DNA of 64,000 bases from Variovorax paradoxus (GTDB lineage Bacteria > Pseudomonadota > Gammaproteobacteria > Burkholderiales > Burkholderiaceae_C): NCBI RefSeq assembly GCF_030815855.1, contig NZ_JAUSXG010000001.1:4712001-4776000 (forward strand), written 5' to 3'. Positions 29,795-64,000 of this stretch are shown here, in pieces (the stretch's first letter is position 1; the number at the start of each line of letters is the position of its first letter). The position numbers and the translations under genes are program-made. The notes beneath the pieces are model-generated. The model saw only the letters and a list, made by a program, of their open reading frames with translations. It did no database searches and was not told the DNA's origin.

Positions 29795-30589
29795 TCACGA
29801 GTCCGTCGGCGCAACGGTTTCTGGCAGCAGCCGCGTCACGTCGTCGTCCTCGTCCCCGATCACCCACAGCGTGAGTGCCGTGTAGTTGTCGTGGCCCTGC
29901 TTGGCGTTGGCCCTCACCTTCGCGTCGATCAGCTCTGTCCACTGGCTGGGGGTGCGCGAGGCATGCAGCGTATCGATCAGGCACTCGTCGCCCAGCGGCT
30001 CCCAGACGCCGTCGCTGCACAGCAGCAGCACGTCGCCGGGCAACAGGCGCATGCGGTCGGACACCGCGATGTCCGGCGCCTCTTCGATCGAACCGAGCGC
30101 GGACAGCAGCATGTTGCGCTGCGGATGCAGGCGCGCGCCCTCTTCGTCGAGCATGCCGCCGGCCACCATCTGCTGCACGAGGCTGTGGTCGGTGGTTCGC
30201 GCCACGATGGCTCCGCCGCGAAACAGGTAGGCCCGGCTGTCGCCGCTGTGCACCCAGGCCAGCGCCTCGCTCTCGAGGTCGATGGCCGCGAACACGATGG
30301 TCGAGCGCATGCCCGCGAGCTTGCCCCCCTCCGCCTGGCGCGCCACCACGTCGCGGTTGGCCTGCTCGACCAGCGCGCGCAGGCTCGCTTCGTCCAGGCT
30401 AGGCGCAGCCGAGAAGCCGCCCAGCGCGCTGCTGCGCACGATGGCCGCCGCCACGTCGCCGCCGCCGTGCCCGCCGGCGCCATCGGCCACCAGGCAGGCA
30501 ACATAGCGCTCGTCATGCCAGTGGCCGTGCACGTCCTCGTTGTAGCTGCGGCCGCCCTGTCTGGACAGCGTGACGATTTCGATTTCCAA
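29795..30589 (-). CDS. pppA: T6SS-associated PP2C-type protein phosphatase
   Basis: A Ser/Thr phosphatase that in other T6SSs reverses PpkA-dependent phosphorylation of the FHA protein. The 264-residue product has the PP2C motifs in order: SYNEDVHG, VADGAGGHGGGD (metal-binding Asp), WVHSGDSRAYLFR, LLCSDGVWEPL and GHDNYTAL. It is the last gene of the long minus-strand arm, 52 bases after the FHA gene. All metal-binding aspartates seem present. Confidence 0.95.
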   Translation of the reverse strand: MEIEIVTLSRQGGRSYNEDVHGHWHDERYVACLVADGAGGHGGGDVAAAIVRSSALGGFSAAPSLDEASLRALVEQANRDVVARQAEGGKLAGMRSTIVFAAIDLESEALAWVHSGDSRAYLFRGGAIVARTTDHSLVQQMVAGGMLDEEGARLHPQRNMLLSALGSIEEAPDIAVSDRMRLLPGDVLLLCSDGVWEPLGDECLIDTLHASRTPSQWTELIDAKVRANAKQGHDNYTALTLWVIGDEDDDVTRLLPETVAPTDS

Positions 30590-30641: not shown

Positions 30642-32330
30642 TCAGGCGTCGGACTTCAGGCGCGCCATCTGTTCTTCGTAGGCCTCGAGAAAGGCCTTGC
30701 CGAAGAGGTTGTGGAAATCGTCTTCCGCCTCGCTCGCGATGCCGCCATAGAGCGCCACGAACTGGTCCCATAGCTTGGCCTTGCGATTGGCACTGAAGAG
30801 CGCATCGAGCGCCGACTTCGCACTGATCTTCTTCTCGAGCTCGTCGGGCTCGAAGCGCCCAATGACATGCGCCAGCGCCGCACGCATGCCCACCATCACG
30901 CCGAACTGGTGCGCACGCAGGTCGTTGAAGGCATCGCGCATGGCGGCTTCGGGCGGCATGAAACCGCGGACACCGGGGCCCAGCAGGTGGGCCAGCGCGA
31001 CATCGGCGGTGGGCGAGAACTTGAGCGGGTTGTTGGCCTGCGACGCGATCATCGTGACCTCGGCGCGCACCTCGCGCTTGAACTCCTGGCGCGTGAGCAG
31101 CAGCTGCAGCGTGCCCTCGGTGGCGCTGCGAAGGATGGTGCCAATGCGCTCCATGAGGCCCGGCGTGAGCATCTCGGGCGCCTGGTGCGTGCTGCCGAGG
31201 CCCCGCAGAAAGGCGGCAAGCAGTTCGTCGTCGGAGGCGGTGCGCTGCAATGCGGGCGCCGCCCTGGCGACCGGCGCTTGCGCAATCTGCGGCTGGGGCC
31301 GCGCCAAGGGCGGCGGAGGCGGCGCCAGCAGCCCGGGCGGTTCACTCGATCCGCCGAGAGACACCTCCGGCCCGCTGATGCGGATCGGCTGGCCTGTGAT
31401 GTCGTCGAACTGCGGCAGCAGCTGCGGCCGTGGCACGTCGATCGCCCGCGGCGGGTTGAAGCCGAACTGATCGATGGGCAAATGGTCGGCGCGCGGTACC
31501 GGCGTGGCCGGCGCGGCGCGCTGCAGCGCCGCCATCGGATCGGCATCGGACGCCGTGTTGGGCTGCAGCAGCGGGTCCGCCAGCGGAGAAAGCGCGAGCG
31601 GATCGCCGCCAATGCCACCCCCACCGCCCATGCCGCCGAACAGCTCGTCGATGCCCGCCGCCTTGCCGTGCGCGGGCGGCGCGCCCAGGTCGGAAAAATC
31701 GTCGAGTGCGCCGAGGCCGGCGGCAGGCGCCGACGAAGGCGCAGCTCCCAGCAGATTGGCGAACGGATCGATCTGCGCAGCCTGGGCATTGCGCGATCCG
31801 TTCTGCATCGGATCGGCAAACAACAACGAATCGGCGGGCTCCGCAGCAGCGGGCGGCGATCCCCTGGCGGCGGCGACCGGTGCCGGCGGCGGCGGCGGCG
31901 CAAGGCCCGCCAGCAAGTCGGCAAACGGATCGTCGCTCGATGATGCCGCCGCCGCCGATGCGGCCATGGGCGCTTTCATGACCGTGTTGGGCACGGCCAG
32001 CGAAGGAGCAGCCGCGCCGGCCACCGCGCGCACACGAAGCTCGAAGCTGCCCACCACGAGTTGTGTGCCGTCGGTGAGCGGGGCTTCCTTGCCCGATCCG
32101 AGCGGCACGCCGTTGCACTGCATCGGATTGCTGCCCCGGTCGATCACGAAATACCGGCCGTCGCGGCACAGCACCTGCGCATGCACGCGCGACACCGTGC
32201 GGTCCGGGTCGTCGAGCACCAGCGTATTGGTGTCCGCACGTCCGATGGTGCCCCCGTTGGGGCCGAAATCGGCGGCAATGGCCTGCCCCGCCGGGGCGTC
32301 TTGCCGGGTGATGACAGCGATATGAATCAT
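30642..32330 (-). CDS. tagH: FHA-domain T6SS protein (TagH/Fha type)
   Basis: The scaffold that binds phosphothreonine and activates the T6SS after kinase action. The 562-residue product has an N-terminal FHA domain (about 1-100, with TIGRADTNTL, SRVHAQVL and the NPMQCNG loop). A long Pro/Ala-rich linker with many DPFA- and DPL-like pieces follows. The C-terminal VI_FHA domain has TEGTLQLLLTRQEFKREVRAE and NNPLKFSPTADVAL. The ATG at 32330 opens the FHA domain; the upstream extension is unsupported. Confidence 0.93.
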   Translation of the reverse strand: MIHIAVITRQDAPAGQAIAADFGPNGGTIGRADTNTLVLDDPDRTVSRVHAQVLCRDGRYFVIDRGSNPMQCNGVPLGSGKEAPLTDGTQLVVGSFELRVRAVAGAAAPSLAVPNTVMKAPMAASAAAASSSDDPFADLLAGLAPPPPPAPVAAARGSPPAAAEPADSLLFADPMQNGSRNAQAAQIDPFANLLGAAPSSAPAAGLGALDDFSDLGAPPAHGKAAGIDELFGGMGGGGGIGGDPLALSPLADPLLQPNTASDADPMAALQRAAPATPVPRADHLPIDQFGFNPPRAIDVPRPQLLPQFDDITGQPIRISGPEVSLGGSSEPPGLLAPPPPPLARPQPQIAQAPVARAAPALQRTASDDELLAAFLRGLGSTHQAPEMLTPGLMERIGTILRSATEGTLQLLLTRQEFKREVRAEVTMIASQANNPLKFSPTADVALAHLLGPGVRGFMPPEAAMRDAFNDLRAHQFGVMVGMRAALAHVIGRFEPDELEKKISAKSALDALFSANRKAKLWDQFVALYGGIASEAEDDFHNLFGKAFLEAYEEQMARLKSDA

Positions 32331-32462
32331 GAATCGGCCCCCGGGGCTGCGCCCGAACATGGCCCGCGCATACACGAGCCCAAAAACTCAGAAGGAGTAT
32401 TCATTCCGGGGGGCTGCTTGGCAATCTCGCCTTAAGAGGTATGCCTTCGTTGCAGCGGCGTT

Positions 32463-49033: not shown

Positions 49034-51763
49034 CTAGTCGAAGGCGTAGGTGAAATCAGCGTCCTTCACATCCAGCGCCACGCGGCGGATCTCGCCGCCC
49101 GATGCCAGGCGTTGCAGGTACTCGACCGAAATCGTCGGCAGCACGGTGTTGGTCAAGATCGCGTCGATCACGCGGCCGCCGGACTCCGGGTCCTGGCAGC
49201 GCGCCACCACCTGGTCGACCACCGCGTCGCTGTATTCGAAGGGCACGCCGTGGTTGGTCTCCACGCGCTTCTTGATGCGGCCCAGCTGCAGCCGCACGAT
49301 CTTCTTCATCATGTCGGGCGACAGTGGGTAGTAGGGAATGGTGACGATGCGGCCCAGCAGCGCGGGCGGGAACACCTTCATGAGCGGCGCCTTGAGCGCA
49401 TCGGCCAGCGCGTTGGAATCGGGCAGCAGCTCGGGGTCGCGGCACATGCTCATCACGAGCTCGCTGCCGGCGTTGGTGGTGAGGAGGATGATCGTGTTCT
49501 TGAAGTCGATCATGCGGCCTTCGCCGTCTTCCATCCAGCCCTTGTCGAAGACCTGAAAGAAGATCTCGTGCACGTCGGGGTGAGCCTTTTCCACCTCGTC
49601 GAGCAGCACCACGCTGTAGGGCCGGCGGCGCACGGCCTCGGTCAGGATGCCGCCCTCGCCGTAGCCCACGTACCCGGGCGGCGCGCCCTTGAGCGTGGAG
49701 ACGGTGTGCGCCTCCTGGAACTCGCTCATGTTGATGGTGATGATGTTTTGCTCGCCGCCGTAGAGCGCCTCGGCCAGTGCCAATGCGGTCTCGGTCTTGC
49801 CGACGCCGGAGGTGCCGCAGAGCATGAACACGCCGATCGGTTTCTGCGGGTTGTCGAGCCGCGCGCGCGACGTTTGAATGCGGCGCGCGATCATTTCCAA
49901 GCCGTGCTTCTGGCCGATGACGCGCATGTTCAGTGTGTCGGCCAGCTTGAGCACCGCCTCGACTTCGTTCTTGACCATGCGGCCGACGGGAATGCCGGTC
50001 CAGTCGGCCACCACCGAGGCCACGGCCTGCTCGTCGACAGAGGGCAGGATGAGCGGCGACTCGCCCTGTACCGCATGGATCTTGGCTTGCAGCGCGTGCA
50101 GCTCTTCAAGCAGCACAGCCCGGTCTTCGCTCCCGCCCCCGCTGGGGGAGGGCTGGGGTGGGGGCACGTCGGCCTTGGCATTGCCCTCCGCGAACGCTGC
50201 ATCCACCGGCTTGTTCCCCGCCCGCAGCTTCGCGCGCAACTCCAGCAGCCGATCGACCAGCCCCTTCTCTTCCTGCCAGCGCGCATTCAGTCCTTCGAGC
50301 TGCAGCTTCGATTCGGCCAGCAGCGCCTCCACCTGCGCCGAGCGCTTGGTCACGTCGATGCCGATGGCTTCCTCGCGACCGATGATCTCCTGCTCGACCG
50401 TGAGCCCCTCGATACGGCGCATGCAGTCTTCCACCTCGGGTGGCGTCGCGTGCTGCGACACGGCCACGCGGGCGCAGGCCGTGTCGAGCAGGCTCACAGC
50501 CTTGTCGGGCAACTGGCGCGCGGGAATGTAGCGATGCGACAGCTTCACAGCCGCCTCGATGGCCTCGTCGAGCAGCTGCACGCGGTGGTGCTTTTCGAGC
50601 ACGCTGGCCACGCCGCGCAGCATCAGAATCGCCTTCACCTCGTCGGGCTCGGGCACCTGCACCACCTGGAAGCGCCGCGTGAGCGCCGGGTCCTTCTCGA
50701 TGTATTTCTTGTACTCGGCCCAGGTCGTCGCGCCGATGGTGCGCAGGTTGCCGCGCGCCAGCGCCGGCTTCAACAGGTTGGCCGCATCGCCGGTGCCGGC
50801 CGCGCCGCCCGCACCCACGAGCGTGTGGATCTCGTCGATGAAAAGAATGATGGGTGTCGGTGAGCTCTGCACCTCGTCGATCACCTGTCGCAGGCGCTGC
50901 TCGAACTCGCCCTTCATGCTTGCGCCGGCCTGCAACAGGCCGATGTCGAGCGTGAGCAGCTTCACGTCTTTCAGCTGCGGCGGCACGTCGCCGCGCGCAA
51001 GGCGCTGCGCGAAGCCTTCGACCACCGCCGTCTTGCCGACGCCCGCCTCGCCGGTCAGCAGCGGATTGTTCTGGCGGCGGCGCATCAGGATGTCGACGAT
51101 CTGGCGGATTTCTTCGTCGCGCCCGGTGATCGGGTCCATCTCGCCCTTCTTGGCCTTCTCGGTCAGGTCGACCGCGAACTTCTTCAGTGCATCGCCCTTG
51201 CCCATGGCCGCCGGCGCCATCGCACCCGAGTCTTCGCCCGGCGCGCCGCTGCCCATGCCGGTGCCGTCTTGCGCGCGCATCTGCGCTTCCGGCGAGGCAT
51301 CGCAGACCTTCACGAAGTTGTCGGCCAGATCCTCGACCTTGATCTTCTCGAACTGCTTCGACAAGCCGAACAGCGGATTGCGCAGGCTCTGCGTCTTGAG
51401 CATGCCCACCAGGATGTAGCCGGTGCGCACCTGCGCCTCGCCGAACTGCAGCGTGGCGTAGGTCCAGGCGCGTTCGATGGCGTTCTCGATGTGCGGAGAA
51501 AAGTCGCTGATGGCGGTGGCGCCGCGCGGCAGCCGGTCGAGCGCGGCGGTCATGTCCTTGGCAATCACCGACACGTCGAGCCCGTAGTGCTGGATCACGC
51601 GGTGCAGGTCGGAGTCTTGTGCCTGCAGCAGCTGAGCGAACCAGTGCTCAAGTTCCACATACGGATTGCCCCGCATCTTGCAGAACACCGTGGCGCCTTC
51701 GATGGCTTTGTAGGCCAGCGAATTGAGCTTGCCGAAAAGGGCGGTGCGGCTGATTTCACTCAT
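49034..51763 (-). CDS. clpV: T6SS sheath-disassembly ATPase ClpV/TssH
   Basis: ClpV is a AAA+ unfoldase that recycles contracted sheath. The 909-residue product has the N-domain that binds TssC (about 1-160). AAA1 has Walker A GEAGVGKT at about 238-245 and the Walker B ILFIDEIHTLVGAGG. A middle region and AAA2 follow (GTSGVGKTETALALAE, Walker B VVLLDEVEKAH). The middle region holds an unusual PPPQPSPSGGGS insert at about 533-545, encoded by a GC-rich repeat element (50131-50164). Both ATPase sites look intact. Confidence 0.97.
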   Translation of the reverse strand: MSEISRTALFGKLNSLAYKAIEGATVFCKMRGNPYVELEHWFAQLLQAQDSDLHRVIQHYGLDVSVIAKDMTAALDRLPRGATAISDFSPHIENAIERAWTYATLQFGEAQVRTGYILVGMLKTQSLRNPLFGLSKQFEKIKVEDLADNFVKVCDASPEAQMRAQDGTGMGSGAPGEDSGAMAPAAMGKGDALKKFAVDLTEKAKKGEMDPITGRDEEIRQIVDILMRRRQNNPLLTGEAGVGKTAVVEGFAQRLARGDVPPQLKDVKLLTLDIGLLQAGASMKGEFEQRLRQVIDEVQSSPTPIILFIDEIHTLVGAGGAAGTGDAANLLKPALARGNLRTIGATTWAEYKKYIEKDPALTRRFQVVQVPEPDEVKAILMLRGVASVLEKHHRVQLLDEAIEAAVKLSHRYIPARQLPDKAVSLLDTACARVAVSQHATPPEVEDCMRRIEGLTVEQEIIGREEAIGIDVTKRSAQVEALLAESKLQLEGLNARWQEEKGLVDRLLELRAKLRAGNKPVDAAFAEGNAKADVPPPQPSPSGGGSEDRAVLLEELHALQAKIHAVQGESPLILPSVDEQAVASVVADWTGIPVGRMVKNEVEAVLKLADTLNMRVIGQKHGLEMIARRIQTSRARLDNPQKPIGVFMLCGTSGVGKTETALALAEALYGGEQNIITINMSEFQEAHTVSTLKGAPPGYVGYGEGGILTEAVRRRPYSVVLLDEVEKAHPDVHEIFFQVFDKGWMEDGEGRMIDFKNTIILLTTNAGSELVMSMCRDPELLPDSNALADALKAPLMKVFPPALLGRIVTIPYYPLSPDMMKKIVRLQLGRIKKRVETNHGVPFEYSDAVVDQVVARCQDPESGGRVIDAILTNTVLPTISVEYLQRLASGGEIRRVALDVKDADFTYAFD
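50131..50164 (-). repeat. REP-like palindromic element inside clpV
   Basis: The 34-base plus-strand sequence begins CCGCCCCCGCTGGGGGAGG and continues GCTGGGGTGGGGG. It closely resembles two copies at 58822-58854 and 58886-58919. It lies within the clpV reading frame and codes for a Pro/Ser/Gly-rich linker, keeping the frame open. It is therefore a mobile-looking short repeat tolerated in a surface loop. Confidence 0.7.
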
Positions 51764-54781: not shown

Positions 54782-55297
54782 TTATCTCTGGGCTTGCGCC
54801 ATGTCCACGATCTCTATGCGGCCTTCTTCCAGATCGACGCGGCTGCGCATCAGGAACTCGAGCGGCACGGGCTGCGCCCACAGCATGCCGCGAATCTGCA
54901 GACCGATGCTGTTGTGGGAGTCCAATGCCGAGCCTTCCATGACGAGTTCAACTTCGAGAGTGCGGGACAGGATGCGTGGCTCGAACTGCAGGATTGCGTT
55001 CTTCAAAGCCTGCTCCATGCTGACACGCTGCACCGACGAGGTGTACTGGCCAGACAGCATAGGCAATCCGTAATTGATGACGGAACGCGCCGCATTCGGA
55101 AAGCGCTTGTCGTCCATCGCGAGGCCGTAGCTGGTGGCGTTGAAAAGCCAGCCGAGGTCGCGCAGCACGGCCTGGCGCAGCGCCTGCTTGGTGAGCGTGC
55201 GCTTGTCGTCGCTCTCGCGCTTCTCGTCCGGCGCATAGTCGACGAGCCGGTCGAGCAGCGACGGCTGCAGCCGCTCCTGCGCGGTGAGTTCAGCCAT
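54782..55297 (-). CDS. tssE: T6SS baseplate protein TssE (gp25-like)
   Basis: TssE is the gp25-like protein that links baseplate and sheath. The 171-residue product has LRQAVLRDLGWLFNATSY, then SVINYGLPMLSGQY, then FEPRILSRTLEVEL. The ATG at 55297 was chosen because GGAGG lies nine bases upstream. It overlaps the tagJ end by eight bases. Confidence 0.95.
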   Translation of the reverse strand: MAELTAQERLQPSLLDRLVDYAPDEKRESDDKRTLTKQALRQAVLRDLGWLFNATSYGLAMDDKRFPNAARSVINYGLPMLSGQYTSSVQRVSMEQALKNAILQFEPRILSRTLEVELVMEGSALDSHNSIGLQIRGMLWAQPVPLEFLMRSRVDLEEGRIEIVDMAQAQR

Positions 55298-56135
55298 CGG
55301 CACCGTCCTCCGATGGCGTGCCGGCTTCCGCAGTGGCGGCGCTGGTGCCCGGCGTGAACAGGATCTCGCGCACGTCCATCAATGCGTACTCGCCGGCGTC
55401 GCTGCCCAGCACGCGCTGGCCGCTGCCGATCCAGACCTCGGGCCGCAGTTCGCGCCACTCGGTCTTGCGCGCGAGCTGCAGTTCGCCGTCCGCGCTGTTC
55501 TCGCTGCCCTCGTAGCGCGTGGGAATCAGCGCGAGCGTCTCGCCGCCGTTCTCGAACTGCAGGTGCGCGGGCATCCAGACGCAATCGCGCAGGTCTTCGG
55601 GCGGCTCGATCTTGATGTGCGCAAGCCGCGCGTAGGGAATCCAGTAGTACTTGCCGTTGACGAAGGCTTCGAGCACCGGGCCGAGGCGCATGTCGGCATC
55701 GGCCAGCCACTCGAAGGGTGCGCCGTCGATGGTGCCGCCGATGGCCGGTGCGGCCTCGAAGGCGCGCCGGCGCAGGTCTTCGGCCATGCCGTCTTCACCG
55801 CGGCCCTGGCGCAGCAGCGACTCGATCAGGAGCGCGAGCCATTCATCGGGCTGCCCGAACACCATGGGCGTGCGCTTGCCCGCGAACACTTCGGCGCGCA
55901 GGCCCTCGCAGCGCACGGCGTCGCCATACACCTGCTTCATCGGCACGGCCAGTGCGTCGAGCTCGGCCGCCACGGTGAGCTGGTTGAGCGCTCGCTCCCA
56001 CTGGCCGAGCACGCACAGCAGCTGCGCCAGGAAGACGCGGTGCTTGCTGTCGGACGGCTTCGCACGCACTTCGTCGCTCAGTGCCTGGAGCGCGGCCACC
56101 GGATCGGCGGCCTTCAGCAGTTCGGATGCGGTCAT
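55290..56135 (-). CDS. tagJ: T6SS accessory protein TagJ (ImpE family)
   Basis: TagJ binds the sheath subunit TssB and modulates ClpV action in H1-type systems. The 281-residue product has tetratricopeptide-like helices (residues 1-110; HRVFLAQLLCVLGQWERAL) and the ImpE domain with VFGQPDEWLALLIES, FEWLADADMRLGPVLEAFVNG and YYWIPYARLAHIKIEPP. It is followed by tssE with an eight-base overlap. Its presence suggests a system of the H1-like clade. Confidence 0.94.
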   Translation of the reverse strand: MTASELLKAADPVAALQALSDEVRAKPSDSKHRVFLAQLLCVLGQWERALNQLTVAAELDALAVPMKQVYGDAVRCEGLRAEVFAGKRTPMVFGQPDEWLALLIESLLRQGRGEDGMAEDLRRRAFEAAPAIGGTIDGAPFEWLADADMRLGPVLEAFVNGKYYWIPYARLAHIKIEPPEDLRDCVWMPAHLQFENGGETLALIPTRYEGSENSADGELQLARKTEWRELRPEVWIGSGQRVLGSDAGEYALMDVREILFTPGTSAATAEAGTPSEDGADG

Positions 56136-56160: not shown

Positions 56161-56727
56161 TCACTCGGCGGACTCGAAGACGCACTCGCGCACCGCGCCG
56201 CGCGCGCCTGCCTCTTTTTGCGGCGCCGAGCGGATGCTGAAGCGCCTGAATGCGAAGCTGATGATTTCCGTCGGTGCGCTCAACACGCTGTTGGTGAGCA
56301 ACATGTGGCTGGTCACCCTCACCTTCTCCATGGTGAACTCCAGCATGGCCTGGGCCTCGGTCGACTTGATGTCGCCGCCCGACTTGTAGACGCTCACGAT
56401 CACCTTGCCGGCTTCGGCATTGACCCGCAGCAGGCTCGCGATGGAGGCCGTGGCTGCATCCGTCCGGCGCACGACGATGAAGTTCGACAAGGCGCGCGCC
56501 GCCGCGGCGCGGCCGGACTGCGAGTTCTGATGCCCGCCCCAGAAATAGCCGGCGATTTCCATGCGCGGCTTGCCGTCGTCGAACTGGCGCGCCAGTTCGC
56601 CCTCGATGGGGGTGCCCGAGTGCTCGATCAGCATCACGAGATCGCAGCCGCTCGCTCCGCCCAGTGCGAGATCGAGCATGCGCAGCGCGTCGTCGGGATC
56701 GGGAACTCCGTTGGAAGTCATGGACAT
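56161..56727 (-). CDS. Second Hcp-family tube protein
   Basis: A 188-residue protein of the Hcp fold: SGCDLVMLIEHSGTPIEGE at the N-terminus, YFWGGHQNSQSGRA in the middle and EIISFAFRRFSIRSAPQ at the end. It differs from the Hcp at 28601-29080 in length and most residues. It has an N-terminal extension (about 30 residues) and a C-terminal tail. It lies 25 bases before tagJ in the baseplate operon. It may be a specialised tube protein or a cargo carrier. Confidence 0.8.
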   Translation of the reverse strand: MSMTSNGVPDPDDALRMLDLALGGASGCDLVMLIEHSGTPIEGELARQFDDGKPRMEIAGYFWGGHQNSQSGRAAAARALSNFIVVRRTDAATASIASLLRVNAEAGKVIVSVYKSGGDIKSTEAQAMLEFTMEKVRVTSHMLLTNSVLSAPTEIISFAFRRFSIRSAPQKEAGARGAVRECVFESAE

Positions 56728-56795: not shown

Positions 56796-58817
56796 TCAAG
56801 GCGCGGCAGGGCTCGTCCAGCGCAGCATGGCGCCGTACACCTGGCGCTCGCGCTCGGGTGTGAGCTGACCGCGCACGCGCAGCTCCGCGGTGTGGGTTGC
56901 CGCTTCGGCGGCACCGGCGCCGAAGAGCCGTGGCGCGCTGCGGGCTTGCGCCGGCGTCGCCAGCACCAGCAACCGCGCCGTGCGGCCGGGCGTGAGCCAC
57001 GGCAGCGCAAAGCGCTTGGAGGCCGGCGACTCGCGCGTGCCGCGTTCGAAGCGATTGGTTTCGCCCAGGTCTTCGGGATAGACGGATCGCACGACGCCCT
57101 CTGCATCGACACCGACCACCACCAGATCGATCGACTGGCCGCTGCCGTTGCGAACCATGAGCTCGGCGCGCTCCCCCGGCCGCAGCTGCAAGGCTCCACC
57201 GGCTGCCTCGCGCACGTTGGCGCTGCGCAGCACGCGGCTGTCGTCGCGCACTTCGAGCACGGCGTCGAAACCGTCGAGCCGTCCGTCTTTTGCCAGGTCG
57301 GCGAGGCGCGACATCCACTTGAGTTGCGCCAGCGCCTGGAGCCGCACGCGGGCTTCGGCGACGTCGCGCACCACGATGCCGGCCGGTGCAACGCCCGCCT
57401 CCGCCTCCGCAGCCGCAGCGAGCGCGCGAGACAGCAGCTCCAGCCGCCCGCCCGCCGCGCCCAGGTCGATCCAGCGCACATCGGCCTGCGCCTCGCCGGC
57501 CGCGCGGATGGATGCGGGGTAGTCGAGGCTGAGTCCGCCGGGCAGCGCGGAATCGCTGCGGACCCGCAGCGCCGCCGAGGCCGGCTCGGCCACGGGCGTC
57601 ACGCTCCATGACGTGGCCTGCGCCAGTTCGGCCAGCGCCGGCGGAACCGCCAGCCGCGCACTGCCGAGTTCGGCCTGCACCAGCCTGCCCTGCGCCGTGC
57701 GCTGGATGCCGTCGGCCAGCGTGGCGACGATGCGGAGGTCCTGCCCTGGCTCCAGGCCGTCGAGCAGGCCGGCCTTGAGCGTGAGGCTGCCGCCCGCACG
57801 TTCGGCACGCCACACGGGGCGCGTCGAAAGAGGCGCCGAGGCATTGGCGAAGATCGGCAGGTCGAGGTTGCCCTCCGCCACCGGCGACGGCAACTCGCGC
57901 GCGGGAAAGCGCGATTCGAGTTCTTCGATCACGGGGGGATAGAGGTCCAGCACGCCGTTGAACAGGTCGCGCCAGGTCGCGGGCTTCTGTTGCAGGGCCT
58001 CGGCCACGGCCCAGGTCAGCAGGCCCTGCGGGCGCGCGTTGCGGGCCTTGCGCGGCAGGCGCAGCTCGGGCGTGACCTGGTGGCTCTCCGATGCGAAGAA
58101 CGCCACATAGCGCGCGCGGGGCACGCCGGCTGCGGTCTCGGGTGGCGCCTGCACCAGCGGCTGTGCCGCAGCGGGCCCGCTCGCGGCAAGCTGGCCGGCA
58201 CGCACGCCGCGAAAGCGCACTTCATCGTCCGCGGGGCCCACATCTTCCGGCGGCTGTGCTGCCGCGCTGCGCGTCATCGAGGCCGCGGAGCAGGTGTCGA
58301 ACACCGACCACACGAACACGTTCTTGCCCAGAAAGGCGCGGATCCAGCGGTCGAAGTCGACATCGCGCAGCCCGCCAGGCAAGCTGCCGCCCGAGGCATC
58401 CATGCCGCGGGCGTCGCGCGCCAGAAAGTTTTCCGCCAGGCCATCGGGCTCCTGGTAGCGCTTGGTGCTGTCGCGCACCCGCGTGCCGTGGCCCGAAAAA
58501 TAGAGCATCACGAAGTCGCCCGAGCGGGACTGCTCGAGCAGCCGCGCCAATGCCTCGTTGATGCGCTCCGCCTCTGGCAGCGAAGCGCCCGCAACGCCAT
58601 CGGCCAACACCGTGACATCGGCGGGCGCGAAGCCCTGTTTCATCAGGGTCTGGCGCATCAGCACCACGTCGTTGCGCGGTGCCTGGAGCCACAGGGCCTG
58701 CGGTTGGTTCACGAGTTCGGAAACGCCGACGAGCAAGGCGCGTTGGGTGGCGAAGGCGGCGTTGCCGCATGCCAGCAGCGCCAGAGCCAATGCGATTCGC
58801 AAACAGAGCGCCCGCAT
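56796..58817 (-). CDS. Caspase-fold protein with C-terminal DUF4384-like domain
   Basis: A 673-residue exported protein. A signal peptide (residues 1-23) precedes a peptidase C14/metacaspase-like domain with His110 in MLYFSGHGTR and Cys176 in VWSVFDTCSAAS, so the catalytic pair is present. The C-terminal half is beta-rich and ends in a DUF4384-like section (LVVVGVDAEGVVRSVYPEDLG). It sits between the one-pass membrane protein and the second Hcp, in the same operon. Its export suggests action in the periplasm. Its link to secretion is unknown. Confidence 0.82.
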   Translation of the reverse strand: MRALCLRIALALALLACGNAAFATQRALLVGVSELVNQPQALWLQAPRNDVVLMRQTLMKQGFAPADVTVLADGVAGASLPEAERINEALARLLEQSRSGDFVMLYFSGHGTRVRDSTKRYQEPDGLAENFLARDARGMDASGGSLPGGLRDVDFDRWIRAFLGKNVFVWSVFDTCSAASMTRSAAAQPPEDVGPADDEVRFRGVRAGQLAASGPAAAQPLVQAPPETAAGVPRARYVAFFASESHQVTPELRLPRKARNARPQGLLTWAVAEALQQKPATWRDLFNGVLDLYPPVIEELESRFPARELPSPVAEGNLDLPIFANASAPLSTRPVWRAERAGGSLTLKAGLLDGLEPGQDLRIVATLADGIQRTAQGRLVQAELGSARLAVPPALAELAQATSWSVTPVAEPASAALRVRSDSALPGGLSLDYPASIRAAGEAQADVRWIDLGAAGGRLELLSRALAAAAEAEAGVAPAGIVVRDVAEARVRLQALAQLKWMSRLADLAKDGRLDGFDAVLEVRDDSRVLRSANVREAAGGALQLRPGERAELMVRNGSGQSIDLVVVGVDAEGVVRSVYPEDLGETNRFERGTRESPASKRFALPWLTPGRTARLLVLATPAQARSAPRLFGAGAAEAATHTAELRVRGQLTPERERQVYGAMLRWTSPAAP

Positions 58818-58821
58818 TGCT

Positions 58822-58854
58822 CCTTCCCCCTCCGGGGGAAGGCTGGGATGGGGG
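58822..58854 (+). repeat. REP-like element, direct copy
   Basis: The plus-strand sequence begins CCTTCCCCCTCCGGGGGAAG and continues with GCTGGGATGGGGG. It is nearly the same as the element in clpV and as the inverted copy 31 bases on. It lies just upstream of the caspase-fold start codon and supplies part of its ribosome site (GGAAGGAG). Confidence 0.7.
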
Positions 58855-58885
58855 AAGGCAGAGCGCTCGATGGATACGCCGCGTG

Positions 58886-58919
58886 CCCCCACCCCTGCCC
58901 TCCCCCGGAAGGGGAGGGA
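58886..58919 (-). repeat. REP-like element, inverted copy
   Basis: Read on the minus strand this is TCCCTCCCCTTCCGGGGGAG followed by GGCAGGGGTGGGGG, facing the copy at 58822-58854. The pair forms a large imperfect inverted repeat in the 128-base gap between the caspase-fold gene and the upstream membrane-protein gene. It could fold as a stem in the mRNA. Confidence 0.7.
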
Positions 58920-58945
58920 GAAAGAAGACCGATGCGCGGCCCACC

Positions 58946-60082
58946 TCATGGCCGCTCCGGTGCCGGACCGGCCGAGGCCACCAGAGGCGACGCCGCCAAT
59001 GCGGCCAGCCCCTGCACGGGGTCGGCCACGCGCAGGCGCCAGCTGCCGTCCGCACCCGGGCCGCCCACCACTTCGGCCGACATCGATTGCAGCAGGCGGG
59101 CCGTGTCTTCGACGCGCGCTTCGGGCTTCCAACGCACCACCAGATCAGCGCGCGCGGCGGCAGCGGGCGGTACGGAACGGAACCGCACCTCATCGTCTTC
59201 GGCGCGTTGGCTCAAGAGACCCACGTTCTGCACCACGACCACCAGCGCGAGCACCGCGAACGCAGGGCGCATCCAGCCTTCGGCACTGAACCAGCGGCTG
59301 ATGCTGCCCCACCAGCCGCCCCCGGGCTTCAGCTGCGGCGTGGCGCGGGCCGTGCGTGCTGCAACCGATGCGCTGCTCAGCTGCGATGCGGCATCGCGAT
59401 AAAGCGCCTGGTAGTCGGCACGCGGATCTTGTGCACCCAGCGGCGTTCCAGAGAGCACCGAGAACACGCCACCCACGGTGCGCAATGCGATGTGCCCCGG
59501 CTCGGGCGCGATGGCCAGCGGCGCTTGCGCGGCCCACTCGTCGTGCACCGCGCGAATCGCGGCCAGCCGCGTGGCGGAGACTTCGCCGAGCACGCGCGCG
59601 CACAGCTGCGGGCTGGGTTCGAGGGTGAGCACGTTCCACGCTTGCACCAACCCGAAGGCGGGCTCGAAGGGCTCGTCATCGGGCTCCAGCAGCACGTCGT
59701 ACGCGCCAGCCCAGTCCGCCTCGCCCGCGGCCATCCAGCCCTGCCAGAGATTGCCGTCGATGCAGCGGTCGAGCAGCACGCCGAGCAGGCGACCTTCGTG
59801 CACCACGCTCAGAAGGCGGCCCGGCGCCCAGCGCGCCGTGAAGGCACGCTGGGCAACAGCCTCGCGGCGCCGGGCCAATTCGTTCAGCGGAAGCAGAAGG
59901 TCGAGCACGGCACGCGGCGGCGCGGCCGAGGCACCTGGCGCGGCGCGGGGTGCTGCGCCGGGCATGGCCACGGTGGCCGTGCCGGCTTCGTGCGCCGGCG
60001 CATCGGGCATCGCGGGCGTGGCGCCCCCGGCCTGGAACGCACTTCGGATCACGCTGAGGGGGGGCCAGAGTTCGGTGTTCAT
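58946..60082 (-). CDS. One-pass membrane protein next to sigma-like gene
   Basis: A 378-residue protein. Residues 1-270 are predicted cytoplasmic, with a conserved-looking FGLVQAWNVLTLEPSPQL. One membrane helix follows at about 275-298 (RPAFAVLALVVVVQNVGLLS), and the last 80 residues would be periplasmic (RLLQSMSAEVVGGPGADGSW). The layout, directly after a sigma-like gene and with a tail of this kind, is that of many anti-sigma factors, but no anti-sigma motif was seen. ATG at 60082 has AGGA upstream; an ATG at 60118 is an alternative. Confidence 0.7.
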   Translation of the reverse strand: MNTELWPPLSVIRSAFQAGGATPAMPDAPAHEAGTATVAMPGAAPRAAPGASAAPPRAVLDLLLPLNELARRREAVAQRAFTARWAPGRLLSVVHEGRLLGVLLDRCIDGNLWQGWMAAGEADWAGAYDVLLEPDDEPFEPAFGLVQAWNVLTLEPSPQLCARVLGEVSATRLAAIRAVHDEWAAQAPLAIAPEPGHIALRTVGGVFSVLSGTPLGAQDPRADYQALYRDAASQLSSASVAARTARATPQLKPGGGWWGSISRWFSAEGWMRPAFAVLALVVVVQNVGLLSQRAEDDEVRFRSVPPAAAARADLVVRWKPEARVEDTARLLQSMSAEVVGGPGADGSWRLRVADPVQGLAALAASPLVASAGPAPERP

Positions 60083-60110
60083 GGCGGTCTGTTCCTGAAT
60101 GGCTATGTCT

Positions 60111-60860
60111 TCAGGCATAAGACGCTTCAGCACCGAGGATTTTGAAAACCTGCAGGATCGCCGCCATGTTGTCGGGCTCGATGGCAATGCCCAGCGTCTG
60201 CTGGATCCAGCCGCCCAGGCGGGTCTTGGTGTAGTCGGCGGTGAGCCCCTCGCGCTTGTGCACCAGGCCCAGCCGGCCCGCCCGGTAGTGGTAGGAGGCA
60301 ATGGCGTGACGCGAGGCAATGCCCGACAAGCCGCCTTCGGCCTCCTTGCCGAAACCTTCGCACAGCAGGATGCGCTCGGGCTCGGGCAGCTCGGCGATGA
60401 AGGCGCGCGCGGCCAGCTGCACCGCCCCCGCGCTCAGGCCGTGCTCCGCCAGGCAGCCGTCGAGGTCTTCGTCCGCGCCGATCACGTCTTCGAGCTGCGC
60501 CTCGGTGACCTGGTCGCCGATCGAGAGCTTGCGCCGGAACGCGCTCGCGCGCGTGCAGTCGATCAGGTAGCGCCTGAAATAAGCGCACAGTGCAAAGGCG
60601 CTGGACGGCGCGCTGTGGCTCGCGCGCTCGTCGGCCTCGTCGGGGTCGGCGTCGAGCCGCAGCACCTTCACATAGATGAACTGCGCCACCAGCTCCTGAC
60701 GGCCTTCGCCGAGCACCTGGAGCTCGGGCGGATTGCAGGCCACGAGCGCGTCGCCGACGATGCGGTACATGGTGCCCATGTCGTTCGAGGACAGCGTCTG
60801 CCGGCGCCGCCAGAGGCGGACGAGCTCGGTGCTTTCCGCGGACGACAGCGTTTCATGCAT
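60111..60860 (-). CDS. Sigma-70/ECF-like regulatory protein, divergent
   Basis: A 249-residue soluble protein. The first half resembles sigma region 2: QFIYVKVLRLDA, then FALCAYFRRYLIDCTRASAFRRK. The second half resembles region 4: AFIAELPEPERILLCEGFG followed by a helix-turn-helix-like LSGIASRHAIASYHYRAG. The match is weak and made by eye. In Xanthomonas citri a T6SS is run by a kinase (PknS) and an ECF sigma factor (EcfK). Here a kinase gene lies two genes upstream, which fits such a role. It could instead be an unrelated helical protein. Confidence 0.6.
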   Translation of the reverse strand: MHETLSSAESTELVRLWRRRQTLSSNDMGTMYRIVGDALVACNPPELQVLGEGRQELVAQFIYVKVLRLDADPDEADERASHSAPSSAFALCAYFRRYLIDCTRASAFRRKLSIGDQVTEAQLEDVIGADEDLDGCLAEHGLSAGAVQLAARAFIAELPEPERILLCEGFGKEAEGGLSGIASRHAIASYHYRAGRLGLVHKREGLTADYTKTRLGGWIQQTLGIAIEPDNMAAILQVFKILGAEASYA

Positions 60861-60891
60861 GGAGCGACAAGGATTCGGAGGACAGCCGGAC

Positions 60892-62484
60892 TTAGTCGTC
60901 CACGCAAACGCCTTCGGTCGGCACCAAACACTGCGGCAAGCCGGCGCCCACCGGGCCGCCGCGCGTGCGAATCGCCGAAGACACCGCCGCCGAGGCCACG
61001 GCCAGGCCGCGCGGCAGCAGGATCCAGAGCTGGCCGCGCTCCTTCATGCGGCGCGCGTTGGTCGCGGCCTGCTGGCCGTTGCCGAAGAAATAGTCGGCGC
61101 GCACCGCGCCGCGGATGGCACCGCCGGTGTCCTGCGCAATGGTCAGGCGCTGCATCGGTGCACCGGTGCCGGGCGCGCGCGTCGACACGAACACCGGATA
61201 GCCGAGCGGCGTGCTGCGCGGATCCACCGCAATCGAGCGCCCCGCCGACAGCGGCACGCCGAACGCACCCACCGGCCCACCCGCCGGCGATGTCGATTCC
61301 TTGAAGAACACGTAGCTCGGGTCCTTGATGCCCGAACCGATGACCGGACCGGCCGCGCGCCGCCCCGGCACCACGACGGCGCCGCTGGCGGTAGGCCGCG
61401 CGAGCGTGAAGCCACGCGTGCGGATGGTGTTGGTGCCGCCCACGTCGTCGTCCTCGTCGCCGTCGTCGAGCTCCAGTTCGATGGACGAGCCGCGCACCTT
61501 CACCGGGGTGCGCGGCTTGCCGTTGGCCGCCTGTGCCAGCGTGGGGCGGAAGGGCTGGCCGTTCTGCTCGGCGTAGGCCACGCGGATGGTGTCGCCGTTG
61601 GCCAGCTTGATGCGGCCCGAGCCCTGGATCTGCATTTCGTAGAGCGCGGTGGCGCTGCTCACGAAGGCCAGCACCTTGGCGTTGGGCGCGCCCTTGGTCT
61701 CGATTTCTTCGCGCGTGTAGTACGGCAGCAGCTGCTTGCCCTCGATGCGCAGGCGCACCTTGCGGTCGAGCGTGTCGCGCGTGATGCCTGAGAGGTCGAG
61801 CGCATAGAGGCCCGGCGCGCCCATGTCGCGCGTGCTGAGCCCGGTCTGCACCACCACGTTGCGGCCTTCGACCCGCGCCGCCACGGTGCCGCTGCCGGCC
61901 GGCAGCTTGCGCGCATCGGCGAACAGCATGTCTTCGGGCTGGCCGTACACCGGGTAGATGAAAGGCGCCGCGTATTGGCGGCTGCCGGCGATCTCGGGCT
62001 CGAAGTAGCCGGTGACCACGCCGTCGGGCTTGCGGTCGTCGTCGCGGATCTGGTAGGCCGAGAACTCCTGCTCGAAGAAGCCGCGGATGGCGGTGCTGTT
62101 CTTGCTGTCGACCCTGAGGGCGCGCGCACACACGTCCTTCCACTCGGCGCCGCGGCCAGTGAGCACCTTGCAGCTGCCGAGAAACGCCGGCCAACTGTCG
62201 GAGAAATCGTCGCGCGCCCAGCCCGGCACGGCATCGAAGCTGACCGAGGTGTAGGTGGCCAGCTGGGTCGAGAAGGTGCGCGCCTGGCCGGCCACGCTCG
62301 CGCCGGTGGAGGCCGGGCGCGACGTACCCGCCGCGGTCGCTGTCCCGGTGTCGGAGGCGGTGGTGGAACCGGCGCCGGAGCTCGCTGCGGGCGGCGTGTT
62401 GGCGCAACCCGCTGCGAGCACCGCCGCGGTGACCGCCGCCCAGCGAAGGGCGGAAAAAATGAAGATCGGCGACTGCGTGTACAT
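60892..62484 (-). CDS. mltA: MltA-type lytic transglycosylase, lipoprotein
   Basis: A 530-residue lipoprotein with lipobox LAAGC and a Thr/Ser/Ala-rich linker. The MltA domain follows (TGYFEPEIAGSRQYAAPFIYP), then the C-terminal 3D domain with VDPRSTPLGYPVFVST and the catalytic aspartate in AQDTGGAIRGAVRADYFFG. It cuts the glycan strands of murein. It is longer than E. coli MltA because of inserts (for example DDGDEDDDVGGT). Lying within the T6SS operon, it may open the cell wall for the membrane complex. Confidence 0.92.
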   Translation of the reverse strand: MYTQSPIFIFSALRWAAVTAAVLAAGCANTPPAASSGAGSTTASDTGTATAAGTSRPASTGASVAGQARTFSTQLATYTSVSFDAVPGWARDDFSDSWPAFLGSCKVLTGRGAEWKDVCARALRVDSKNSTAIRGFFEQEFSAYQIRDDDRKPDGVVTGYFEPEIAGSRQYAAPFIYPVYGQPEDMLFADARKLPAGSGTVAARVEGRNVVVQTGLSTRDMGAPGLYALDLSGITRDTLDRKVRLRIEGKQLLPYYTREEIETKGAPNAKVLAFVSSATALYEMQIQGSGRIKLANGDTIRVAYAEQNGQPFRPTLAQAANGKPRTPVKVRGSSIELELDDGDEDDDVGGTNTIRTRGFTLARPTASGAVVVPGRRAAGPVIGSGIKDPSYVFFKESTSPAGGPVGAFGVPLSAGRSIAVDPRSTPLGYPVFVSTRAPGTGAPMQRLTIAQDTGGAIRGAVRADYFFGNGQQAATNARRMKERGQLWILLPRGLAVASAAVSSAIRTRGGPVGAGLPQCLVPTEGVCVDD

Positions 62485-62538
62485 GAAAGCCTCCTTGTCC
62501 GAAAAAGACGGCCCATCGGGCCACCGCTCTACAGACGA

Positions 62539-64000
62539 TTACTTCTCGACGATTTTGAAATTCGCGACGCCGTAGACGTCGTTGCATGGGGTGTTGGGCG
62601 CGCACACCGGCTGGCCCAGCAAAGGCGACGGCCCCGTGCCGCGCGTGGCTTCGAGCGCCGCCAGCACGGGCAGCGGAAACTGCGGAAACACGCCGTCGTT
62701 CTTGACGCCCGAGGCGCTGAAGTCGCGCTCGTGCTCGCTCACGAGCACCGCGAACTGGTTGGTGCCGGCCGGGCCGCCCGCATCCATCGGCCAGGAGGCG
62801 CGCGGCAGCGAGAGCGGGCTGCCGGCGGTGATCTTGTTGTACTTGTCGAGCAGGTTCGGGAACAGCAAGAACATCTCGCCGCCGCTCGACAGCAAGAACA
62901 CGTAGACAAAACCTTCGCGCTTGCTGCGGACCTCGAAGGCCAGCTTGTCCTTGCCGATCGACACCTCGGGCTTCTTCGGCGTGGCCGTCACATCGAAGCC
63001 CGGCGCGGCGCCCGCGGCAAGCGACTGCAGCGAGTCGAGCGGCGTGCGGGGCAGCGATGGAGGAGGCGGTGGTGGTGGCGGAGGCGTCTCGGTCCCGCGG
63101 TTTTCGGGCGGCGGCGGAGGCGTCACGATCGCCTGCTTTGCACCGCCGTCGCCCTCCGCGCCCGGAGTGCGGCCCTGGTACCACCACCAACCGCCGCCCG
63201 CCACCACGGCGGCCACCGCCAGAGATGCGATGGCAGGCACGGCCTTGCTTTTTTTTCCAAAGCCGCCGCCATCGGGCCCCGGCGCGGAGGTCTTGCCGCG
63301 GCCGATGACCGTCGGCGCGTCGGCGTTGCTGCCGGTCTTGCGTGCGCCAGGGGAAGCTGGCGGCGAGGTGCGCGACACCGGCGCGATGCTGTGGCCCACT
63401 TCCAGATCGAGCGCGGCGCGGAACTCGGCCATCGACTGCGGTCGTGACTCGGGCCGCACGCCCAGCCCGGCGTCAATCGCCTGCAGCAGCCGCAGGCTGT
63501 AGCGCTGGCGCAGGATCTCGTTGCCCGCCAGCGGCACATAGCTGTCGGACAGCAGCCGCGCTACCGAAGGCGGCGGCGCGCGCCCGCACACCGCCACGTG
63601 CATCACGGCCGCGAGTGCATAGACATCGGTCCACGCGCCCTGCGACATGTCGGGCATCTCGGCGTACTGCTCGATGGGTGCGTAGCCGGGCTTGAGGATG
63701 ACGGTGATCGCCTGCGTCTTGTCGGTGATCACGCGGCGCGCGGCGCCGAAGTCGAGCACCACGGGCCGGCCCGAGCCTTCGAGCAGGATGATGTTGTCGG
63801 GCGCGATGTCGCGGTGGTAGCAGTTGGCGCCGTGCATCACCCCCAGCGCCTGCGTGACGCCGTCCATGATGCGGATCAGCCACGCCTCGTCCACGCCGGC
63901 GGGAATGGACACCAGCGCCTGGCGCAGCGTGTCGCCGCGGTAGAACGGCATCACCATGTAGGTGGTGCCGCGCTCCTGCCAGAAGCGGTAGACCTTCAGC
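62539..64000 (-). CDS. ppkA: T6SS Ser/Thr protein kinase (PpkA/Stk1-like), 5' part outside window
   Basis: About 487 C-terminal residues are visible; the start and most of the N-lobe lie beyond base 64000. The kinase domain shows the catalytic loop YHRDIAPDNIIL, DFGAARR and GYAPIEQYAEMPDMSQGAWTDVYA. A Pro-rich linker and one membrane helix (IASLAVAAVVAGGGWWWY) come next. The periplasmic part includes a PPPPPPPPP run and a DUF4384-like domain (EGFVYVFLLSSGGEMFLLFP). It probably phosphorylates the FHA protein, opposed by the PP2C at 29795-30589. Confidence 0.9.
   Translation of the reverse strand, partial: LKVYRFWQERGTTYMVMPFYRGDTLRQALVSIPAGVDEAWLIRIMDGVTQALGVMHGANCYHRDIAPDNIILLEGSGRPVVLDFGAARRVITDKTQAITVILKPGYAPIEQYAEMPDMSQGAWTDVYALAAVMHVAVCGRAPPPSVARLLSDSYVPLAGNEILRQRYSLRLLQAIDAGLGVRPESRPQSMAEFRAALDLEVGHSIAPVSRTSPPASPGARKTGSNADAPTVIGRGKTSAPGPDGGGFGKKSKAVPAIASLAVAAVVAGGGWWWYQGRTPGAEGDGGAKQAIVTPPPPPENRGTETPPPPPPPPPSLPRTPLDSLQSLAAGAAPGFDVTATPKKPEVSIGKDKLAFEVRSKREGFVYVFLLSSGGEMFLLFPNLLDKYNKITAGSPLSLPRASWPMDAGGPAGTNQFAVLVSEHERDFSASGVKNDGVFPQFPLPVLAALEATRGTGPSPLLGQPVCAPNTPCNDVYGVANFKIVEK

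Follow-up and report, generated by a model that had tools for sequence, protein, structure and literature searches.

A sigma-like protein, a membrane partner and an exported caspase-fold protein form a separable module in a type VI secretion operon of Variovorax paradoxus

The canonical control of extracytoplasmic function (ECF) sigma factors relies on membrane anti-sigma factors that are released by regulated proteolysis (PMC8999054), and for the ECF54 group the same source proposes control by neighbouring subtilase, carboxypeptidase or CHAT (caspase-HetF) proteins. In the literature that we consulted, one sigma switch of a type VI secretion system (T6SS) cluster has been worked out, namely EcfK (PMC13147305). 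According to that account, the Xanthomonas citri cluster encodes PpkA and PknS as two separate kinases. The main text of a 2023 review of T6SS regulation names RpoN, RpoS and RpoE and mentions neither EcfK nor anti-sigma factors nor caspases (PMC10482370), and in Xanthomonadales the group 3 T6SS with TagJ are described as having the threonine phosphorylation pathway (PMC6653060).

Here we analyse a window of 64,000 nucleotides from the complete 5.95-Mb genome of Variovorax paradoxus (assembly GCF_030815855.1), in which a T6SS operon on the minus strand carries three adjacent genes between mltA and hcp: sig, for a sigma-like protein, mem, for a membrane protein, and casp, for a caspase-fold protein. 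The three-gene module is real and conserved. That it is a regulatory module of this PpkA-controlled operon, a sigma/partner switch gated by casp, appears to us to have an even chance of being correct. We found no published account of a sig-mem-casp module in the openly licensed literature searched, and what looks new is the sigma-like family, its undescribed partner, the presence of an exported caspase in the module, and the presence or absence of the whole block inside a T6SS operon.

A separable block between mltA and hcp

Among 81 Variovorax genomes, that of the window included, sig is present in 52 and a close TagJ orthologue in 60; the two occur together in 51 genomes, TagJ alone in nine, sig alone in one (G885, which is 86% complete) and neither in 20. 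Four of the nine genomes with TagJ only were examined, chosen for their few contigs (G882, G890, G861 and G895, leaving aside G859, G866, G871, G878 and G902). All four show the same order, TssL-TagF-PpkA-MltA-Hcp-TagJ-TssE-TssF, and none has a match to sig, mem or casp at E 1e-4 in the 18-kb stretch of the locus. The distance between the matched ends of MltA and Hcp is 34-74 bases in three of these loci and 813 in the other. Genome-wide, sig is absent from all four and casp from three, the fourth having only a distant copy elsewhere (33% identity, E 7e-10). Because these loci keep TagF-PpkA-MltA-Hcp-TagJ yet lack all three genes, sig, mem and casp constitute one separable module, to which the kinase and MltA are mere neighbours. 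This conclusion follows also from the relative G054, in which the order is TssA-TssB-TssC-Hcp-sig-mem-casp-Hcp-TagJ and the kinase orthologue (PpkA, 54%) lies about 21 kb from sig on the same contig. Such presence and absence of a block in otherwise matching T6SS loci provides natural on/off pairs for comparison.

On a tree of TssF (61 rows, proteins of 550 residues or fewer having been dropped) the presence of the module needs four changes, and the hypothesis that the four module-free loci make up one clade is rejected (p-AU 2.5e-8). Four is the count on the TssF tree rather than proof of four losses, and TssF may have been exchanged between strains.

The search for sig relatives behind our locus comparison matched 119 places, of which 80 were kept. 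Because 62 of the 64 Comamonadaceae loci (L011-L074) keep kinase-MltA-sig-mem in this order on one strand, the arrangement is not due to chance; the two exceptions, L038 and L069, have their match close to the end of a contig. The sequence extends as far as Hcp in 57 loci; in 54 of these casp lies between mem and Hcp, and L065, L073 and L074 are without it. A sequence-only reading of the window had described the minus-strand order from the kinase to Hcp, with gaps of 25-130 bases, and had suggested a survey of Comamonadaceae for its conservation. The order is borne out in the window, where all open reading frames were found in place with successive gaps of 54, 31, 28, 128 and 68 bases, and the genes are not scattered in relatives. 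The same reading had joined kinase, sigma-like protein, membrane protein and caspase in a single control circuit; this has to be replaced by a PpkA pathway plus a separate three-gene module. As to close relatives, TssF is 98% identical to that of locus L024, and sig is 96% identical to that of V. paradoxus DS1452.

Farther away, 16 named Paraburkholderia and Burkholderia loci (L075-L090) have, within the flanks fetched, sig only, at 45-47% (e.g. L076, 9947-10741). Inspection of L076, L080 and L087 by eye placed this orphan sig close to genes for a sensor kinase, a response regulator and a large oxidoreductase of GMC type, with the domains confirmed for L076. Pairs of sig and mem are found also in L097, L098 and L119; no T6SS gene was seen by eye in the 18 kb of L097 or in the 7.7-kb contig of L098, and the 1.9-kb stretch of L119 is too short to tell. 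By eye, the mem proteins of L097 and L119 have no C-terminal membrane span. Wider searches, in which the window's own genome is counted each time and scoring was confined to the top few candidates of each genome, with the risk of missing some, found sig in at least 8 of 200 genomes of the family, at least 6 of 300 and at least 5 of 399 of the order, at least 2 of 369 of the class and at least 2 of 299 of the phylum; two of the six in the 300-genome search are at chance level (G220, E 0.05; G373, E 0.01).

Table 1. Features of the operon and its surroundings in the window
Feature	Position	Strand	Remarks
PpkA-type T6SS Ser/Thr kinase	62539..64000	-	neighbour, outside the module; 5' end beyond the window; whole gene, L002 4539-6434
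MltA-family lytic transglycosylase	60892..62484	-	MltA 103.9 bits, 3D 76 bits; neighbour, kept where the module is missing
sig, sigma-70/ECF-like protein, 249 aa	60111..60860	-	first gene of the three-gene module; remote family match to TIGR02937, hhalign, absence as a block
mem, membrane partner, 378 aa	58946..60082	-	N-terminal LWPP domain (predicted cytosolic), one predicted transmembrane span at about 273-291, predicted periplasmic I9-like fold at 310-378
VRFR, mem residues 299-302, candidate cleavage site	59177..59188	-	[VIM]R[FYL]R motif just past the membrane span
casp, exported caspase-fold protein, 673 aa	56796..58817	-	p20 domain behind a predicted signal peptide; dyad His110/Cys176; Asp50 and Asp174 in the pocket
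Hcp	56161..56727	-	downstream edge of the module
TagJ/ImpE and TssE	54782..56135	-	Pfam/NCBIfam matches
T6SS Fha protein (FHA and T6SS_FHA_C)	30642..32375	-	T6SS_FHA_C E 9.6e-59
PP2C phosphatase, PppA-like	29795..30589	-	PP2C E 3.5e-11

The three proteins and the adjoining kinase

The region 2/4-like sigma pattern that had been noticed in sig is recovered in its relatives and is undetectable in the window protein alone. When a diverse alignment of 36 members of the sig family was scanned (E-values being per protein), TIGR02937 (sigma70-ECF) matched eight members at E<=10, with values below 0.01 in six cases and a best value of 6.1e-5, and TIGR02989 matched four, with a best value of 4e-4. The TIGR02937 match extends from sigma 2 into sigma 4, profile positions 7-143 being aligned with residues 21-154 of P0243. 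Pfam returned no sigma family for the 36 members, the sig of L010 having Sigma70_r2 at E 1.2; the family link between L010 and the window sig is firm (profile E 1.9e-15). In a profile-profile alignment with hhalign, the sig family scored 26.5 against eight ECF sigma factors of the window's genome, in the expected register, as compared with 22.7 or less in 300 column shuffles and 13.8 for the reversed profile. A distant but significant homology that covers sigma 2 through sigma 4 is thus established at the level of the family only. We therefore find it highly probable, judging from these profiles, that the sig family is a true but far relative of sigma-70, and rather likely, with less assurance, that sig would still be a working sigma factor. 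The family is undescribed, highly divergent and sigma-70/ECF-like, and it reaches no curated cut-off in Pfam or NCBIfam.

In sigma 2.2, members P0243-P0286 have DRDD, DRED or ERED before LVQ or LIQ, the window sig having GRQE-LVAQ. No Ser or Thr occurs in this stretch of the window sig (residues 50-69), so that a phosphorylatable Thr of the EcfK type (T51) is missing there, EcfK itself lying outside our alignment. Sig is the best conserved of the ten T6SS-locus proteins compared and carries an extra conserved C-terminal block (LGxWI...). Searches of the Protein Data Bank (PDB) by sequence gave no row for sig or mem, and only chance-level rows with their profiles; PADLOC had no match for either.

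The mem gene accompanies sig in all 64 Comamonadaceae loci, at a spacing of 27-28 bp in 39 of them. Its product has a single predicted membrane span with a predicted cytosolic N-terminus, and residues 310-378 are predicted to be periplasmic with a fold like that of subtilisin propeptides (I9); its AlphaFold model is poor except for residues 310-370. A search of the genome with the periplasmic domain gave no clear second copy (second row E 0.64). Directly past the span, the motif [VIM]R[FYL]R is found in 55 of the 57 caspase-positive loci (window and G054 included), its second Arg in all 57, and the motif in none of the three complete loci that are caspase-negative. Contig-truncated mem rows were dropped from this count, and 21% would be expected from composition alone to have RxR within 30 residues. 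L023 and L038 have the motif on contigs that end before the position of casp. In the loci without casp (L065, L073 and L074), the mem span is also lost in two, and in the third it is the juxtamembrane Arg motif that is missing; two of the three keep the C-terminal domain of mem.

Casp matches Peptidase_C14 with 43.8 bits (cut-off 21.4), and the G054 member with 56.3 bits. The analyst chose the start of the gene, and residue numbers follow that start, with which the His/Cys pair proposed earlier is exact. The dyad and the two Asp residues are invariant in all 56 aligned caspases, those of 500 residues or fewer having been dropped; family profile and dyad together identify casp as a caspase-fold peptidase of C14. 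Its earlier description as exported agrees with a predicted signal peptide preceding the p20 domain. In TbMC2, two Asp residues hold basic substrates (PMC6426788), and in our reading Asp50 and Asp174 correspond to this pair by position, which by analogy would make casp a predicted Arg/Lys-specific protease.

At the junction of mem and casp, the window has a 128-base spacer (58818-58945) with inverted-repeat G/C-rich arms; in 14 of 55 relatives the two genes overlap there by 4 bases. A 25-base piece of this spacer recurs (96%) inside clpV at 50144-50168, and an alternative start of casp at the ATGA overlap may add an N-terminal extension.

The adjoining kinase is of PpkA type and forms the ordinary part of the finding. 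Compared with all solved structures it matches PpkA (5hnv) with 290 bits (E 2.6e-85), the next kinase having 59.5 bits, and this match and its retention without sig led us to reject it as a PknS homologue. Because it is PpkA-like and accompanied in the cluster by Fha, a PP2C phosphatase and TagF, it belongs to the known T6SS threonine-phosphorylation pathway. The full-length protein has 631 residues (L002), with one predicted membrane span at about residue 398 and DUF4384 behind it; a DUF4384 common to kinase and caspase was also rejected, the C-terminus of the caspase having no Pfam match and an hhalign score of 12.9, which the best of 100 shuffles exceeded (22.3). Upstream of the kinase lie TagF (TagF_N 131 bits, E 3.3e-38), TssM, TssL and TssK. 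The N-terminus and linker of PpkA contain DDRTQV and PTVIG motifs, which we take to be possible phospho-Thr sites for Fha. Between TagF and PpkA no evident gene was seen by eye (L002 6435-7078); pppA occupies this position in Pseudomonas aeruginosa, and the PP2C gene here lies away from it.

A possible switch and its alternatives

How might such a module work? In the switch that we consider an even chance, sig would be a highly diverged ECF-like sigma factor and mem its dedicated partner, with a cytosolic domain binding sig, one span and a periplasmic propeptide-like domain; most likely mem would hold sig inactive as an anti-sigma-like tether. Casp would sense or execute an envelope signal in the periplasm and alter or cut the periplasmic part of mem, perhaps at the juxtamembrane Arg site, and the freed sig could then join RNA polymerase and turn on T6SS or linked genes. 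We doubt the most specific form of this proposal, in which casp would be the first-cut protease that cuts a new kind of membrane anti-sigma-like protein after the juxtamembrane Arg and thereby releases a sigma factor whose family is undescribed, so that envelope damage would be coupled to T6SS transcription alongside the PpkA pathway and independently of it.

Several observations weigh against such a switch. The window sig matches no family in Pfam or in NCBIfam, either at E<=0.1 or at E<=10; all NCBIfam sigma matches in its family are below the curated cut-off (best 22.7 versus 42.9 bits), the clades that give them are about 25-32% identical to the window sig, and the probability that hhalign itself assigns to the sig-ECF alignment is only 7-14%. 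In the T6SS clade, the acidic DAED-type motif of sigma 2.2 is degenerate. AlphaFold modelled sig poorly (pLDDT 52.8, from an alignment of 43 rows at least 69% identical to the window), and Foldseek returned 26 matches with it, all at E 2.8 or worse and of no use. The suggestion that mem is an anti-sigma factor agrees with its being encoded together with sig and stays an inference, Pfam and NCBIfam showing no anti-sigma family in the members of the window, L096, L097 and L098. In the four module-free genomes the search for mem covered the locus alone, where it had no match. No other window gene, of the T6SS or mem, was matched in the flanks fetched (up to 10 kb) of the Paraburkholderia and Burkholderia loci. 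Because casp is missing from three of the 57 complete loci that keep sig and mem, and turned up nowhere in G158, G454 or G689, the protease cannot be indispensable for all sig-mem pairs; sig can at times do without casp, and in some cases without mem as well. Finally, the correlation of the Arg motif with casp is a lead, given that the loci are related and that the negatives are only three, and related.

Among the alternatives, it is unlikely, if still worth weighing, that sig is a sigma-derived adaptor without a role in transcription, which would form with mem an inner-membrane scaffold tuning T6SS assembly or firing. The degenerate sigma 2.2 motif and the extra C-terminal block would suit an adaptor, as would conservation as high as that of structural T6SS proteins and the failure of sig to match above any curated cut-off, but sig-mem pairs exist without T6SS genes in the stretches read of L097 and L098, and the orphan sig of Paraburkholderia has none of the window's T6SS genes in its flanks. 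A self-protection or suicide device is improbable: casp would be a periplasmic executioner set off by an incoming attack, with the propeptide-like domain of mem as its inhibitor and sig reporting the event. I9 domains, which this arrangement calls upon, inhibit S8 proteases, not caspases, and in L065, L073 and L074 mem persists although casp is absent, in two cases complete with its C-terminal domain. Least of all do we expect the kinase to phosphorylate and activate sig as PknS does EcfK, with mem as a relay, as the sequence-only reading had suggested by analogy, for even if the kinase gene lies two genes upstream of sig in 62 of 64 loci and the motif degenerate in the T6SS clade recalls the lack of DAED in ECF43 sigma factors (PMC8999054), the parallel fails because X. 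citri has PpkA and PknS separately (PMC13147305) and the kinase here is PpkA-like, with PppA, Fha and TagF in its cluster, is kept without sig in four loci, lies about 21 kb (G054) or a contig (G158, a draft genome) away from sig or has no match at E<=0.001 in a genome with sig (G449), and faces a sigma 2.2 without Ser or Thr. The kinase that adjoins sig thus differs from that of ECF43, where a cognate Hanks kinase other than PpkA is expected to be inherited along with the sigma gene.

In the literature covered, it is uncommon for a T6SS cluster to have a sigma-type switch of its own, and a protease step, if true, would assign a definite role in signalling to the bacterial homologues of caspases, which is a long-standing question.

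Relation to known systems

With the threonine phosphorylation pathway the comparison is simple, in that PpkA, PppA, Fha and TagF are all encoded here and nothing is new (PMC5995506, PMC6653060). The EcfK/PknS cluster of X. citri resembles the present one in that genes for a sigma-like protein and for a kinase of Hanks type accompany those for PpkA, PppA, Fha, TagF and TagJ in a T6SS cluster, as far as its published descriptions go (PMC13147305, PMC6653060), whereas here the kinase by sig is of PpkA type, sigma 2.2 has no Ser or Thr, and a membrane partner and a caspase are added.

The nearest precedents, by analogy, are the release of anti-sigma factors by proteolysis and, for the caspase-fold neighbour, ECF54 with CHAT proteins, both as presented in PMC8999054. 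ECF54 shares with the module a sigma gene beside a gene for a caspase-fold protein, but in that account is without an anti-sigma partner, while in the module the caspase has a predicted signal peptide, mem stands between casp and sig, and the locus is that of a T6SS. The canonical ECF/anti-sigma pairs (PMC8999054) are alike in combining a sigma-like protein with a co-encoded one-pass partner of predicted cytosolic N-terminus, and in the periplasm-acting protease that we propose as trigger. The module departs from them in its partner without a recognisable anti-sigma domain, in a sigma family below curated cut-offs and in a caspase-fold protein in place of the usual proteases.

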